Below, one piece after another: positions 6,278 through 49,121 of a stretch of DNA of 49,223 bases. The notes beneath the pieces were generated by a model. The model made no database searches and had not been told where the DNA came from. It saw only the letters and a program-made list of their open reading frames with translations. The DNA lies in NCBI GenBank assembly GCA_009995545.1, contig JAACPI010000001.1:66475-115697 (forward strand), given 5' to 3'. This stretch comes from a bacterium. Lineage in GTDB: Bacteria > Patescibacteriota > WWE3 > 2-01-FULL-39-13 > JAACPI01. Every line of letters begins with the position of its first letter. Position 1 is the first letter of the stretch. The position numbers and the translations under genes were made by a program.

Positions 6278-7345
6278 ATGAATCTGCTGTCCCGCAAATC
6301 GTTTCGTAAAATTACTGCTGTAGTGTTATTTGTTATTCTCGGTAACATACCCTTACTTAGTTTACACCCTAATTTAGTTAGCTCTGTCTCTCTTGCAAGT
6401 TACTCAGACACAATGTCTCGTCAAAAAATTAGTACAGACTCCTCGCACACTTTCGTATTAACCTTGGGAGCAACTACGGCTTTGGATGCTGCAGAGACCG
6501 TTGAATTTACCTTTGCTCCTGAATTTACTATTGCGGATTCTACTGATGCTACCACCGATTACACTTTTAATGATGGTACTGCAAGAACTATTACGGATGT
6601 TACCGGTTCCTGTTCTGCAGGGGCTAACAATGTTTCTGTATTGGCAAATGACACTGCCAAAACAATAACCTTTACTGCTTGTTCTGGTTTTACGTCTAGT
6701 GCTGCTGGAGCTACTATTACTATAGAAATCGGCATAGCTGCAGGTGGTGTAGATATAATTACAAATCCCGCCGTTACTAATACTTACGACATAGGCGTAG
6801 TTGCTGCGACTGAAACTGGGAATTTAAGTCAGGTAATTCTTAACGACGATCAAGTTCAAATAACTGCTTCCGTAAATCCCTCTCTGACTGTATCACTATC
6901 TTCTAACACTTGTGCTCTTGGAGACCTCACTACTGCTCAAGTAGATAGTTGTAATTATAATATTAATGTAGATACTAATTCTACAAATGGCTATACCGCA
7001 ACTATTACTGAGGATGGAAATCTGAGGACAGGCGCAGGGGATGATATCAATGATGAGACTGGTAGCGAAACTTTGGTAGCAGGTACAGAAGAATATGGGG
7101 TTGGGTCAAGCGACTCTGATGTAGCTGGGGGGTCCAACGAATTTCCAACTTATACTGATTGTGGAGACCCTGTAATTACACCTGTTGCTGGAGCTATCAC
7201 AGCCTCTCCTGCCAAAGTAGTGGGTAAAAATGCCTCTTCTGGTACGGAATCCATTACAGTTTGTCATATGGCCACAATTGGAAGTGGTACCGCCACAGGT
7301 AGTTACAGCCATTTGGTAACTATTATTGTTACTGCCTTGTACTAA
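6278..7345 (+). CDS. Secreted beta-sandwich surface protein
   Basis: This 355-residue protein (ATG at 6278) has a basic N-terminus followed by a hydrophobic core (ITAVVLFVILGNIPLLSL), a good signal peptide. The mature part is rich in Thr, Ala, Gly, Ser and Asp, with few basic residues, and appears to hold two immunoglobulin-like beta domains (about residues 45-190 and 195-350). Four to six cysteines (for example SCSAG, FTACSGF, NTCALGD, DSCNYN) could form disulfides. The second half contains NINVDTNSTNGYTATI, a pattern I associate with uncharacterised CPR surface proteins. No sortase or lipobox motif is seen. A TAGAAT box upstream suggests its own promoter. The function is unknown. Confidence 0.7.
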   Translation: MNLLSRKSFRKITAVVLFVILGNIPLLSLHPNLVSSVSLASYSDTMSRQKISTDSSHTFVLTLGATTALDAAETVEFTFAPEFTIADSTDATTDYTFNDGTARTITDVTGSCSAGANNVSVLANDTAKTITFTACSGFTSSAAGATITIEIGIAAGGVDIITNPAVTNTYDIGVVAATETGNLSQVILNDDQVQITASVNPSLTVSLSSNTCALGDLTTAQVDSCNYNINVDTNSTNGYTATITEDGNLRTGAGDDINDETGSETLVAGTEEYGVGSSDSDVAGGSNEFPTYTDCGDPVITPVAGAITASPAKVVGKNASSGTESITVCHMATIGSGTATGSYSHLVTIIVTALY

Positions 7346-7425
7346 ACTCCCTTGCAAAAAATATATTTTTACGGTATTAAGAGACGGTGTTATTAAAATT
7401 TATCTAGTGTTTGCTTATAAAAAGT

Positions 7426-9639
7426 ATGTCCAAAAAACTAAAATTATTAATTGTTGAGTCTCCCACCAAAGCTAAAACGATAAAATCATTCTTACCAAGT
7501 GATTACGAGGTAATTGCCTCTGTTGGGCATATAAGAGACTTGCCCAAAAGCGAATTGGGGGTAGATGTAGACAAAAACTTTAAGCCTAAATACGTTATAC
7601 CGGAGAGGGCCGAAAAAAATGTTAAAAAACTAATTGATAGTTATAAAAGAGCTGATGAAGTTTATCTTGCCACAGATGAGGATAGAGAGGGAGAGGCTAT
7701 TGCCTTTCATATCGCCCATGTACTAGCCTCAAAAAAATTTAAAAAAGCTCCTGTAGAAGGATTTAAACGAATTACTTTTCATGAAATTACTAAGCAAGCT
7801 ATAGAAGAAGCTATAAAGTCTCCCCGTAAGGTTTCTATACCTATGGTGGATTCTCAGCAGGCGAGGAGAGTGCTAGACAGGCTTGTAGGTTATAAGCTTA
7901 GCCCTGTTTTATGGAAAAAAATCCAGTTCGGTCTTTCCGCTGGAAGGGTTCAAAGTGTAGCTCTAAGACTAATAGTTGAAAAAGAAAAGGAAAGAGACGA
8001 CTTTGTTTCTCAGGTGTATTTTAACTTTCCTGCAATTTTTTTATCTACTAAAAAAGACAATATAAATGCTTCTCTGTTTAAGTGGGGTGCTAAAAAATTA
8101 GAGGAAAAAACTAGTAAGGGTGAGCGTAATTTTTTAGTCACTAGTCAAGAGGAGGCCGATAAGCTAATAGCTCAGGCAAAAGACCAGATCTATAAAGTTC
8201 GAGACGTTAAAGAACGGGAGTCTAACAGAAAGTCTTATGCACCGTATACAACCTCTACCTTGCAACAGGCAGGTAGTAACTTGCTAGGATTTAGCTCCCA
8301 AAGAACTATGCGAGCGGCGCAAAAGCTTTACGAGAACGGTCATATAACTTATCACAGAACCGATAGCATAATTTTAAGCACCAAATTTGTGGATCAAGCA
8401 AAAAAACACATAGAATCTAAATACGGAAAAAATTACTATCTACAAAATATTTTTAAAAACAAATCTAAGAATGCCCAAGAAGCTCATGAAGCTATTAGAC
8501 CCACAAATCTTACTTTAGATATATCTTGTGCTGAGGAGGAACTTAAGGTTTACGAGTTAATTTATGCTAGAGCAATTTCTAGTTTAATGGTTCCAATTAA
8601 AACTCTTGGTACTAGCTTAATTATTGAGGATTCAAATAAGCATTTTGAATTTAAAGCTTCCGGATTTCAAGTTACCTTTGATGGTTGGTCAAAGGCCTAC
8701 GAAAATCTCCCAAGTGTAAAATACTCTCCAATTTCGGCTGATACCTTGTTACCCTCCGTAAAAGTGGGAGAGAGTGTAGCCTTAAAAGATATTAAGTCAG
8801 AAAAAAAAGAGACACAGCCTCCTGCCAGATACAGTGAGGCTTCTTTAATTAAAACCTTAGAACAGTTCGGCATTGGTCGACCTTCTACATATGCCCCTAC
8901 AGTCACTACTATAATAAGTAGAAAGTATATTGTTAAAGAGCAGGGGTACCTACACCCTACAGACTTAGGTATCGTAGTTATGTCACTTCTTATGGATAAC
9001 TTTAGAGATATAGTAGATTATAGTTTTACCGCCTCAATTGAAGATAATTTAGACAGAGTGGCCTTAGGGGAAGAAAATTGGACAAAAGTACTTAAAGATT
9101 TTTATGCCCCTTTTAATACCAAAGTTGAGCTGGCCTCTAAGAATTTAACTAGGGATGACTATAAAATACTAGGGGATGCGCCCAAATCTACCAAGTGTCC
9201 TGACTGTAAAGGTAAAATGCTTATAAAACTTGGCAAAAATGGTCGTTTTTATACTTGTGCGAAGTTTCCTGAGTGTAAGGGGATAAGGGATATCGATGGT
9301 AACACTGACAAAGATATTGAAAAAAAGGTTTTATCTAAAGAGTTTAAATCTATGTATTTGTCGTCTCCTAAAACAGAGGATGGTCAAAGTTATATATTAA
9401 AAAAAGGTCGTTACGGTGAATTTTGGGCACACCCGAGCTACCCTAAAGTTAAAGACGCAAAACCTCTTGAATTCACAAAAAAATATTTAACTGAAAAGTA
9501 TGGCCAAGCTCCAAAAACAGATAAAGGAAAGAGTTTTGTTTTTAGACAAGGTAAATGGGGGCCCTATTGGGCACACCCAGACTATCCTAAAATAAAAGAA
9601 ACTAGGAGAATAAAGGTACAAAAAGATAAAGAAGATTAA
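7426..9639 (+). CDS. topA: DNA topoisomerase I (type IA)
   Basis: It relaxes negative supercoils through a transient 5'-phosphotyrosine. The Toprim domain has LIVESPTKAK (Glu11) and ATDEDREGE (Asp84, Asp86, Glu88). The catalytic tyrosine is Tyr309 in GHITYHRTDS. A C4 zinc ribbon (CPDC...CAKFPEC, about residues 586-612) is followed by two topoisomerase C-terminal repeats with the signature KxGRYGEFWAHPSYP and RQGKWGPYWAHPDYP. I prefer the ATG at 7426 over a TTG at 7411, giving 737 residues. It stands alone after an 80-base gap. Identification is secure. Confidence 0.96.
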   Translation: MSKKLKLLIVESPTKAKTIKSFLPSDYEVIASVGHIRDLPKSELGVDVDKNFKPKYVIPERAEKNVKKLIDSYKRADEVYLATDEDREGEAIAFHIAHVLASKKFKKAPVEGFKRITFHEITKQAIEEAIKSPRKVSIPMVDSQQARRVLDRLVGYKLSPVLWKKIQFGLSAGRVQSVALRLIVEKEKERDDFVSQVYFNFPAIFLSTKKDNINASLFKWGAKKLEEKTSKGERNFLVTSQEEADKLIAQAKDQIYKVRDVKERESNRKSYAPYTTSTLQQAGSNLLGFSSQRTMRAAQKLYENGHITYHRTDSIILSTKFVDQAKKHIESKYGKNYYLQNIFKNKSKNAQEAHEAIRPTNLTLDISCAEEELKVYELIYARAISSLMVPIKTLGTSLIIEDSNKHFEFKASGFQVTFDGWSKAYENLPSVKYSPISADTLLPSVKVGESVALKDIKSEKKETQPPARYSEASLIKTLEQFGIGRPSTYAPTVTTIISRKYIVKEQGYLHPTDLGIVVMSLLMDNFRDIVDYSFTASIEDNLDRVALGEENWTKVLKDFYAPFNTKVELASKNLTRDDYKILGDAPKSTKCPDCKGKMLIKLGKNGRFYTCAKFPECKGIRDIDGNTDKDIEKKVLSKEFKSMYLSSPKTEDGQSYILKKGRYGEFWAHPSYPKVKDAKPLEFTKKYLTEKYGQAPKTDKGKSFVFRQGKWGPYWAHPDYPKIKETRRIKVQKDKED

Positions 9640-40985: not shown

Positions 40986-41130
40986 GTACACTTAAAAAAT
41001 GTATATTGTCGCTTGGGGGTTTGACAGTTTCTGCTCGAAACCTGCTTCGCCCAGTTTAAGCTTCGGCTTAAACAACTTTTAGAAGCCTTGTTTTACATCG
41101 AGTAAAGCATCGGCCCCCCAGCCTTTTTTT
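40986..41130 (+). ncRNA. Candidate structured non-coding RNA with terminator
   Basis: Between a consensus promoter and a T7 run (41124-41130) lies a compact predicted fold. The closing stem is GCTTGGGGG (41011-41019) with CCCCCCAGC (41114-41122). Inside are GTTTC/GAAAC (41027-41031, 41037-41041), GCTTC/GAAGC (41044-41048, 41082-41086) enclosing GTTTAAGC-TTCG-GCTTAAAC (41054-41073), and TTTAC/GTAAA (41092-41106). The UUCG tetraloop and nested helices argue against chance. No Shine-Dalgarno or ORF is present. I tested it against tmRNA, SRP RNA (no GGAAG domain) and RNase P signatures and see no match. It may be an unrecognised small RNA or a riboswitch-like element. Confidence 0.6.
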
Positions 41131-41187
41131 GTGCCCAAAAGCAAACACAAAACCTCGATTTTTAATCTACCTCTTTATTGTAAATAC

Positions 41188-41230: not shown

Positions 41231-41303
41231 GGGGTGGTAGCTCAGTGGACAGAGCGTCAGACTCAAAATCTGGAGGCCGTTGGTTCGAATCCAGCCCACC
41301 CCT
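41231..41303 (+). tRNA. tRNA with anticodon CAA (Leu), short variable loop
   Basis: A complete cloverleaf can be drawn. Acceptor GGGGTGG/CCACCCC, D arm GCTC/GAGC, anticodon arm TCAGA/TCTGG with loop CTCAAAA (anticodon CAA at 41264-41266), variable loop AGGCC (5 nt), and T arm GTTGG/CCAGC with loop TTCGAAT. CAA reads the Leu codon UUG. Bacterial Leu tRNAs normally have a long variable arm and A73. This one has a class I variable loop and U73, so its amino-acid identity deserves a check. CCA is not encoded. A 14-bp hairpin begins six bases after the discriminator. Confidence 0.85.
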
Positions 41304-41309
41304 CACTGC

Positions 41310-41348
41310 GCGTCGGGCGGAGAATTTTTACCTTTCTCCGCCCGACGC
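41310..41348 (+). terminator. 14-bp GC-rich hairpin downstream of the tRNA
   Basis: GCGTCGGGCGGAGA (41310-41323) pairs perfectly with 41335-41348 around a loop of 11 nt. No T-run follows (CTTGACC). It probably defines the 3' end of the tRNA precursor, by termination or as a processing barrier. The tRNA-like RNA at 44783 has the same arrangement. Confidence 0.65.
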
Positions 41349-41408
41349 CTTGACCTTTAAGCTTTTAAAACCCTAGATACACAACACTAAATCCAGTATA
41401 TTTAACCC

Positions 41409-42327: not shown

Positions 42328-42430
42328 TTGACTAAATTATCCTACAGTAGCAGTATTGTTATTGCGCGATGAGCTGGGGTCGAGAGGGGGTGTGACGCCT
42401 TTTTTATCTCCCCCTGCTCATCGCGTTATT
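42328..42430 (+). ncRNA. Candidate small RNA or stable hairpin
   Basis: TTGACT (42328-42333) and CAGTAT (42351-42356), 17 bp apart, precede a long inverted repeat. CGCGATGAGC (42365-42374) pairs perfectly with 42416-42425, extended after one T-T mismatch by GGGG/CCCC. The loop carries GGTG-TGA-CGCC followed by T6 (42400-42405). No ORF is associated. It may be a small RNA or an inserted palindromic element. The promoter match is moderate. Confidence 0.45.
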
Positions 42431-44741: not shown

Positions 44742-44770
44742 TTGCAATATAGAATTCTATAACTTACAAT
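44742..44770 (+). promoter_or_regulatory. Promoter of the tRNA-like RNA
   Basis: TTGCAA (44742-44747) and TACAAT (44765-44770), 17 bp apart, predict a start about 5-6 bases before the RNA. The -35 type resembles that of the tRNA at 41231 (TTGCAC). Confidence 0.55.
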
Positions 44771-44782
44771 ATATGTCATTAG

Positions 44783-44860
44783 GGGGCTGAGCCTTGGCAA
44801 AATTCTTTTTCCCACAATGGCGTGGATTCAAGAACTGTGGTTTCAAAACCACCAGCCCCA
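44783..44860 (+). ncRNA. tRNA-like structured RNA
   Basis: A 78-nt unit closed by a seven-pair acceptor-like stem, GGGGCTG (44783-44789) with CAGCCCC (44853-44859), followed by A like a discriminator base. A 3' hairpin GTGGT-TTCAAA-ACCAC resembles a T arm or a CAA anticodon arm. A middle CTTG...CAAG encloses CCAC/GTGG. The D-arm and the T8 position do not fit a normal tRNA. It has a tRNA-type promoter and, like the tRNA at 41231, is followed within a few bases (ACTC) by a long hairpin. It could be a degenerate tRNA or a dedicated tRNA-like RNA. Confidence 0.6.
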
Positions 44861-44863
44861 CTC

Positions 44864-44903
44864 GTCGTTGAACGGGTGTAAATATTTATATCCGTTCAAC
44901 GAC
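44864..44903 (+). terminator. 12-bp hairpin downstream of the tRNA-like RNA
   Basis: GTCGTTGAACGG (44864-44875) pairs perfectly with 44892-44903 around a 16-nt A/T-rich loop. As after the tRNA at 41231, there is no strong T-run. Confidence 0.65.
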
Positions 44904-44981
44904 TTACCAACTTAATTAATTTACAAAATTGTTATTTAACATTTATTGACAAACATATTTGTTAAGTATATTTTTAAAATC

Positions 44982-45566
44982 ATGCGAAATACTAGATTTA
45001 CAACAAAACCTGGAAACCTTAGGAACGGAGAAGACGGGACTTTAAATGTAATGTTGCCTACAACTTACGCCTATCTGCTAGAGCGAAAAAAAGAATACGA
45101 GATTCGCCTGCACCAGACTTTCGCAAGAAGTGTGGTAGACAGTGACGGAGATTCTTCTGCTGATACTGTTCAGGCTGATAGAAGGCGTAACGCTGAAACT
45201 GAAAGTGATCATCTAACTAGGGTCACCAGAGCTCTTTTGGATGCTGTAGTTTTAGAAGCACCTACTCAAGTAGAAACTGTGCAAGTAGGCCATACTGTTT
45301 TTATAGACTTTGGGTTCGACCCAGAACCCGTTCATATCTTAGGTTGTGCAGATGCTGCCTACGCTAGTTTATACTGCGGTACTTGTAATGTTTTATCGCC
45401 AGAAACGGCTTTAGGGCAAGCTATTATTGGTGCCAAACCCGGAGATGCGATTAACTACACAGTTGGCGGTAGAGACTTTATAGCGCATATCCCCAATGAT
45501 CCTGAGGCTATACAGGTATCCTCATTATTCGCATTTACATTCGATTCCCCTGAGCAAGTTGAGTAA
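44982..45566 (+). CDS. GreA/GreB-like transcription factor
   Basis: The 194-residue protein has a C-terminal domain matching GreA: VQVGHTVFIDF, then VHILGCADA, LSPETALGQAIIGAKPGDAINY and DFIAHI (GreA: SPLG.ALLGK..GD). The N-terminal half fits the Gre coiled coil, with GDSSAD in place of the tip GDLSEN, so Asp41 is kept but Glu44 is not aligned. Gre factors stimulate RNA cleavage in backtracked RNA polymerase. The changed tip suggests altered or lost cleavage activity. TTGACA (44946) and TATATT or TATTTT place the start at the ATG 44982, not the TTG inside the -35 box. The tRNA-like RNA is upstream and the RtcB-like gene downstream. Confidence 0.7.
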   Translation: MRNTRFTTKPGNLRNGEDGTLNVMLPTTYAYLLERKKEYEIRLHQTFARSVVDSDGDSSADTVQADRRRNAETESDHLTRVTRALLDAVVLEAPTQVETVQVGHTVFIDFGFDPEPVHILGCADAAYASLYCGTCNVLSPETALGQAIIGAKPGDAINYTVGGRDFIAHIPNDPEAIQVSSLFAFTFDSPEQVE

Positions 45567-45664
45567 ACATAAGCGATTTTTGCATTTTAAGTTGCGAGAG
45601 TTTACGCTCTGTTTTTATATTTGTTAAACACGACAGCGCTAAATATGTGTAATATACTTTAATT

Positions 45665-46780
45665 ATGAGTACAAGTTTGCCTCTTCGTCAGACTGAATCT
45701 ATAATCACGCCCCAAATTCCCAGAATTTTTGAAGGTGAACAAGGTTGGGAGCATACCGAAGTAGTAAATCTTTCCGGCTATACCGGCAATGATCAATATT
45801 TAGTAGAAACTAATTTAAGGCCTTGGTTAGGGTTTTTAGCAGGGGAGGCCACAAAATTAGTAGTTTTTCCCGATGTAAGCCCTACTCAGGGCGGCATTAT
45901 TCCAACGGGTGTAGCTGCAGAATTTAATGTTGAAAAAACACCAGGTTATTTAGAATACTTTAGGGGTGCAGACGTAGGTTGTGGAATGTACGTTGCGGCC
46001 TTAAACAAAGATAAATGGTCTCAAGAAAGTTTTAGAGCCAACCCCCAAAATTTAGACAGATTATATGATTTAATGGCTAGGCATAATAAAGAATTCGCCT
46101 TAGGTGGGGGAAACCACTTTTTAGATTTTTCGTACGATATTGAATCCGAGGAGGTTTTTGTTGTAATACATACTGGGTCGTTTGGTGATTTGCAGTTACA
46201 GCTTGGTGGTTTATATCAGGACCCTTCAAAATATTGGGATACGTATGAGAGAACAATAGCAAGTGCGGTTTCAAATAGACTTAAAATCGCTGCAGTAGTG
46301 CAAGATATATTTGGACCTGTTATGTGGTCAAGTGATACTATTCACAACTCCATTGATACGACATCCGTAGATAACACAGGACATGTGCGTGTTTATAAGG
46401 GTGTAGTTCAGGTATCGGATACCTCTAAGCCCTTAATTTTACCAAGTAGTGCAGATGGCTTAATGCTACTTTACTCTGCCGGAGAAGGAATAAATGGAGA
46501 GGTTTTATATGGTACATCCCATGGTACAGGTCGAAGAATTAAAAGAGGGGATGCAAAAGGGGATCAGTTCATTAGTGATAATAGTTTACAGGTGGATATA
46601 AGTGGAAGGGTTCATTTATCGCAAGTTATGTTGCCAAGGCAAATTTCCGGTATTCCCTTAACAGAGTCTCCTGTAGTTTATCACTCTATAGACAGGTCCG
46701 AAGATTTAATGGAAAGATATAGTTTAATGGGCCCATCTGCTAGATATCTTCAAGCATTCGCTTACTTAGGCCATATATAA
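45665..46780 (+). CDS. Divergent RtcB-like RNA ligase
   Basis: RtcB joins RNA 2',3'-cyclic phosphate or 3'-phosphate ends to 5'-OH ends using GTP and Mn2+. All core motifs are in order: GADVGCGM (Asp103, Cys106), LGGGNHF (Asn150, His151), VIHTGSFG (His169), TIHNSID (His227), VYKGVVQ with LILPSSADG, and SHGTGRR (His286, the guanylylated His). Two differences from classic RtcB are visible. The early PDvH.G motif is FPDVSPTQGG, with Ser for His, and the C-terminus ends in YLGHI without the conserved Lys. The length of 371 is short (family about 400-480). TATACT (45653-45658) lies 6 nt before the ATG. It is probably a distinct subfamily. Confidence 0.85.
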   Translation: MSTSLPLRQTESIITPQIPRIFEGEQGWEHTEVVNLSGYTGNDQYLVETNLRPWLGFLAGEATKLVVFPDVSPTQGGIIPTGVAAEFNVEKTPGYLEYFRGADVGCGMYVAALNKDKWSQESFRANPQNLDRLYDLMARHNKEFALGGGNHFLDFSYDIESEEVFVVIHTGSFGDLQLQLGGLYQDPSKYWDTYERTIASAVSNRLKIAAVVQDIFGPVMWSSDTIHNSIDTTSVDNTGHVRVYKGVVQVSDTSKPLILPSSADGLMLLYSAGEGINGEVLYGTSHGTGRRIKRGDAKGDQFISDNSLQVDISGRVHLSQVMLPRQISGIPLTESPVVYHSIDRSEDLMERYSLMGPSARYLQAFAYLGHI

Positions 46781-46806
46781 TGAGACTTTTTTGAGGGAAT
46801 ATTTTT

Positions 46807-46860
46807 AAAAACTACCTCTGGGGATTTGTTGGTGTAGACACCAGTCCAAATCCCCAGAGG
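46807..46860 (-). terminator. Long hairpin terminator for the minus-strand gene
   Basis: CCTCTGGGGATTTG (46815-46828) pairs perfectly with 46847-46860, enclosing a second stem TGGTGT/ACACCA (46830-46843). On the minus strand it is followed by TAGTTTTT. It lies between two convergent genes. Confidence 0.75.
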
Positions 46861-49038: not shown

Positions 49039-49121
49039 GCAAGGCTCTGTAAAAACCTTTGGTTTTTAAGTATCTAGTAACTAGTATTAAGTATCTGGCA
49101 AAGATCTTTACAGAGCCTTGC
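49039..49121. repeat. 15-bp inverted repeat flanking a short spacer
   Basis: GCAAGGCTCTGTAAA (49039-49053) and its perfect complement TTTACAGAGCCTTGC (49107-49121) enclose 53 bases that include CTAGTAACTAG and two TAAGTATCT repeats. It could be a structured RNA, a terminator or the end of an inserted element. The remaining 49122-49223 shows nothing I can assign. Confidence 0.6.

Follow-up and report, generated by a model that had tools for sequence, protein, structure and literature searches.

Three genes that follow one another directly on the plus strand of the window (the whole 49,223-nt stretch of DNA analyzed here) specify a 78-nt tRNA-like RNA (positions 44783–44860), a Gre-like protein (44982–45566) and a divergent RtcB-family RNA ligase (45665–46780). 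These are probably neighboring genes that are expressed separately: a ligase that is likely active and falls in a divergent RtcB clade, an unrelated, lineage-specific tRNA-like RNA and a divergent Gre copy. The original prediction had read the three parts as one possible RNA-repair locus; its observations are right in nearly every detail, whereas that interpretation is not supported. Two points are of lasting value: an orphan tRNA-like RNA, and a small RtcB clade whose active sites carry unusual changes. The source genome (872 kb in 16 contigs, 92% complete) is that of a patescibacterium (CPR), the phylum that also contains a Levybacteria MAG with a homologue of the ligase, and was compared with six other genomes of its order, each from another family than its own and none of its genus; the search for the RNA covered 45 genomes of the class (the source genome and 44 others), and RtcB proteins were surveyed in a sample of 380 patescibacterial genomes.

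The 371-residue product of 45665–46780 is a genuine but extreme RtcB. Its PF01139 score of 35.8 bits exceeds the cut-off of 27, and it matches an RtcB profile from the PDB at 4.5e-59. Structure prediction, which had been proposed as a check, yielded a model of moderate confidence (pLDDT 67) for which the PDB structures matched at E≤0.001 are exclusively those of RtcB. With residue roles assigned from human RTCB (PMC8668186), D103, C106, N150, H151, H169, H227, K245, H286, R290 and R294 are all retained. The ligands of the two metals (one Asp, one Cys and three His, namely D103, C106, H151, H169 and H227) are invariant in the alignment, and the histidine that receives the guanylate in the HGxGR motif is present as H286 in HGTGR, so that the full metal and guanylate motif set is in place as predicted. 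Also as predicted, a serine (S72) stands where the early histidine of the PDxH motif is expected. The absence of the C-terminal lysine holds as an observation; it is not specific, since six patescibacterial RtcBs of the ordinary kind (L018, L019, L021, L025, L030 and L031) lack this lysine as well. A further change, which did not figure in the original prediction, replaces the near-invariant arginine of HxGSR with F173.

Measured against 13 diverse RtcBs, the protein retains 33 of 45 near-invariant positions and departs at 12, among which are the C-terminal lysine position, the histidine of PDxH and the arginine of HxGSR. These changes, together with a very long branch in the tree (4.3), would fit a decaying or repurposed RtcB that has lost ligase activity and now, for example, binds RNA or acts as a nucleotide-binding regulator. 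We consider this unlikely, given that every metal ligand, the guanylated histidine, N150, K245, R290 and R294 have been kept in a protein whose identity to other RtcBs is about 28% at most, a pattern that points to selection on catalysis. Activity is nevertheless not certain, because F173 takes the place of a near-invariant arginine. The protein is very likely an RNA 3′-phosphate/5′-OH ligase. Such an enzyme would transfer GMP from GTP to His286, within a site for two metals formed by Cys106, His169 and His227 on the one hand and Asp103, Cys106 and His151 on the other; once guanylylated, it would activate an RNA 3′-phosphate and join it to a 5′-OH end, its task most likely being the mending of cleaved tRNA or other RNA.

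Phylogenetic analysis groups the ligase with one protein each from Levybacteria (L094) and Parcubacteria (L095) in a clade of three long-branched members (support 90/97). At the PDxH histidine position these carry Ser in the window's ligase, Asn in L094 and Cys in L095, and loss of this histidine marks a small clade comprising one Levybacteria and one Parcubacteria protein besides the ligase itself; Phe173 is peculiar to the window's protein within this clade. RtcB is present in 32 of the 380 genomes sampled, among which the weakest and most divergent PF01139 matches come from the source genome and from the Levybacteria MAG that encodes L094 (G368). The divergent ligase was found in no other genome of the order or of the class. 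Pattern searches built on a single protein retrieved no relatives from genomes or viral contigs, and a pattern derived from the ligase paired with the Levybacteria protein was the sole route to the second relative. Matches in viral, phage and plasmid sequences proved to be ordinary RtcBs (21–30% identity) and were set aside. The ligase is best read as a member of a small, fast-evolving patescibacterial RtcB clade that has lost both the C-terminal lysine for guanine binding and the histidine of PDxH. Separately, pattern matches in two other patescibacterial proteins show QAGSG (L031, 1495–2670) and NTGSF (L027, 868–2304) where the HxGSR metal-ligand motif is expected, and some patescibacterial RtcBs may accordingly lack one metal ligand.

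The 194-residue protein encoded at 44982–45566 on the plus strand, immediately upstream of the ligase gene, was predicted to be GreA-like with a changed tip, and this description is borne out. It matches PF01272, the C-terminal domain of Gre factors, below threshold (20.8 bits against a cut-off of 26.9), and its coiled-coil tip reads GDSSAD, as opposed to GDLSEN in the GreA of the same genome. A single-sequence model of low confidence (pLDDT 42) outlines two long helices and is informative only as a helix outline. Like GreA and GreB, then, the protein has the C-terminal domain match and, in this low-confidence model, the two helices; unlike them, it falls below the PF01272 gathering score, lacks the acidic tip and bears extensions at both its N- and C-termini. 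Three better Gre genes, a tandem GreA pair and a further paralog, reside elsewhere in the genome, making this a fourth and divergent copy, which would represent an extra RNA-polymerase secondary-channel factor with an altered tip. No relative was found in viral contigs, and neither this protein nor the two orphan proteins upstream of it matched a defense-system or phage family.

A 78-nt tRNA-like RNA had been predicted at 44783–44860, and the region is indeed tRNA-sized and forms a closed multi-arm fold (−28.5 kcal/mol, z −2.8; z −7.5 when a downstream hairpin is included). An acceptor-like stem of 7 bp closes the fold. Of its three arms, the first is tiny, the second is long and interrupted by a symmetric internal loop, and the third, which is T-like, is contiguous with the acceptor-like stem; a discriminator-like A follows, and no CCA is encoded. 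When both strands of the window were scanned for a tRNA-like outline, defined as a 7-bp GC-rich terminal stem, a span of 66–91 nt, an adjacent T-like arm and TTC in its loop, this RNA was the sole match; 60 simulated strands gave none, a figure that is flattering because the criteria were chosen with the RNA in view.

The RNA is not a standard tRNA. No tRNA was called at this position by ARAGORN, by Rfam or by a search of the whole genome with RF00005 at E≤10, and no other Rfam family matched it. Its size, acceptor-like stem, discriminator-like A and T-like arm would suit a degenerate tRNA (a pseudogene) or an unusually folded tRNA that still serves translation, the more so as several isoacceptors, tRNA-Cys among them, are not seen in the incomplete assembly. 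This reading is possible but doubtful: the D-like arm is only 8 nt long, the T-like loop has 8 nt in the tRNA-like pairing (4 nt in the minimum-energy fold), the elongated middle arm with its internal loop presents no clear anticodon, tRNA models give no score, and the perfectly paired stems are unlike those of a decaying gene. The possibility of a minimal tmRNA was also discarded, since the genome has a likely tmRNA elsewhere, at the end of contig C6, in which a tag-like frame was read by eye and which scores below the Rfam cut-off; the 78-nt RNA, moreover, matches no tmRNA model. Covariance-model searches in the 45 genomes of the class produced no convincing relative (the best other E value was 0.7), and the exact pattern of its 3′ end was not matched in viral sequences. 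It is best read as a separate, lineage-specific and presumably expressed stable RNA. The small RNAs of this bacterial group are poorly known, and the orphan is a candidate for a new tRNA-like member.

Directly 3′ of the RNA, after a gap of 3 nt, lies an 18-bp hairpin (44864–44903, plus strand) with no T-run behind it, and its position matches that of a hairpin following an odd tRNA gene in the same window. This gene, at 41231–41304, specifies a class-I tRNA with the anticodon CAA (Leu), a discriminator T and no encoded CCA, the only one of 36 tRNA sequences listed by ARAGORN to lack CCA; an ordinary class-II tRNA-Leu(CAA) with CCA is also present in the genome. A hairpin of 15–17 bp follows it within a few nucleotides, tRNA and hairpin together lying within 41231–41350, and hairpins within 70 nt of the other tRNA genes whose flanks could be read never exceed 13 bp. 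Its matches elsewhere in the class include no CAA tRNA of the same kind. Because the 78-nt RNA shares this 3′ anatomy, a CCA-less end followed by a hairpin, the tRNA gene at 41231, and not a Y RNA, offers the best comparison for it; the same resemblance also counts toward the doubtful reading as an aberrant tRNA. Other structured segments were noted in the window: a possible structured RNA of about 110 nt, closed by a strong stem and containing seven consecutive T (41011–41131, z −3.0), which has no Rfam match; a hairpin structure of very high stability in the spacer that separates rpsU from an orphan gene (42364–42426, −38 kcal/mol, z −6.0); and a 15-bp inverted repeat enclosing about 50 nt (49039–49121, z −3.4), upstream of a minus-strand gene for a threonine-rich secreted protein.

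Promoter-like elements found by consensus scanning of the plus strand precede each of the three genes. The tRNA-type promoter claimed for the RNA corresponds to the promoter-like element TTGCAA-17-TACAAT (44742–44770, 9 of 12 matches), with the reservation that such sites occur in the region at a near-chance number (15 found against 11.6 expected, counting consensus matches only). TTGACA-17-TATTTT (44946–44974, 10 of 12 matches) ends 7 nt before the ATG of the gre-like gene, and ACGACA-17-TATACT (45630–45658) lies 6 nt before that of rtcB. Across the window, 7 of 28 genes have a −10-like hexamer ending exactly 6 nt before the start codon, compared with 0–2 at other distances, and Shine-Dalgarno-like motifs are rare at gene starts. 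The peak at 6 nt is suggestive of separate units with leaderless transcripts; transcription without a leader may be widespread in this lineage. From the promoter-like signals that each possesses, we infer that the RNA, the gre-like gene and rtcB are expressed separately.

The arrangement is not conserved in the two clade relatives. The L094 gene is flanked by a methyltransferase gene and genes for proteins without a family. In L095 (Parcubacteria, stretch 7201–8876) a guanylate kinase gene (87.6 bits) ends 8 nt before rtcB, and its product could recycle GMP released by ligation. Beside neither rtcB gene was a tRNA gene, a covariance-model match to the 78-nt RNA or a recognized Gre gene found. 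In two relatives from the order, the stretch around yqeY shares an rpsU-like gene with the window, and gre and rtcB are absent from it. The predicted absence of Ro60, RtcA and PrfH from the vicinity also holds: Ro60 (TROVE) and RtcA were not recognized in adjacent proteins by Pfam or NCBIfam or, by eye, in downstream open reading frames, and prfH was not among the frames adjoining rtcB.

The proposal of a single RNA-repair locus fails because the neighborhood is not kept in either clade homologue, and it is further opposed by the 44 other class genomes, in which the RNA was not found, and by the separate promoter-like elements. A true RNA-repair unit, with the RNA acting as an RtcB substrate, decoy or scaffold and the Gre-like factor coupling repair to stalled RNA polymerase, would draw on the adjacency of the three parts on one strand and on the Y RNAs with a tRNA-like domain carried by rtcBA operons elsewhere (PMC7790460). 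Given the unconserved arrangement, the separate promoter-like elements and the lack of recognized Ro60, RtcA or PrfH genes among the neighbors, such a unit is quite improbable. As the comparison involved two clade relatives and no close genomes, a very young association or a recent co-adaptation of the three parts may exist. Highly improbable is the specific notion that the orphan RNA, an RtcB whose nucleotide recognition has changed and a Gre-type factor form a module for RNA repair or decoy action specific to this lineage, with the RNA serving the ligase. Taken as a locus, the region does not so far widen the set of known RNA-repair operons, and three separately expressed neighbors are the likeliest reading.

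Among those operons, rsr-yrlBA-rtcBA combines Ro60 and RtcA with Y RNAs; the tRNA-like domain of these RNAs has been proposed to inhibit the anticodon nuclease competitively (PMC7790460). The window resembles it in placing an rtcB gene near a tRNA-like RNA; it differs in that no Ro60/Rsr or RtcA is recognized nearby, the RNA has no Rfam match and the arrangement is not conserved. By score, the nearest named subfamily to the ligase is RtcB2-PrfH, known from the rtcB2-prfH pair (PMC1586002). RtcB2 (TIGR03073 and PRK09588) supplies its best NCBIfam matches, at 47.2 and 34.8 bits, and has a similarly short length, but these scores fall well short of the respective cut-offs (407 and 271.8 bits), no prfH adjoins the gene, and RtcB2 branches elsewhere in the tree and keeps PDxH, so that the ligase does not belong to this subfamily. 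Compared with RtcB in general (PF01139), the ligase is set apart by its shortness, its low identity, the serine in place of the PDxH histidine, the phenylalanine in place of the HxGSR arginine and the missing C-terminal lysine, and it agrees in fold, in both metal sites and in the guanylated histidine, K245 and R290. If it is active, RtcB chemistry would be shown to work without the guanine-binding lysine, the histidine of PDxH and the arginine of HxGSR, which would bring the role of each of these residues into sharper focus.
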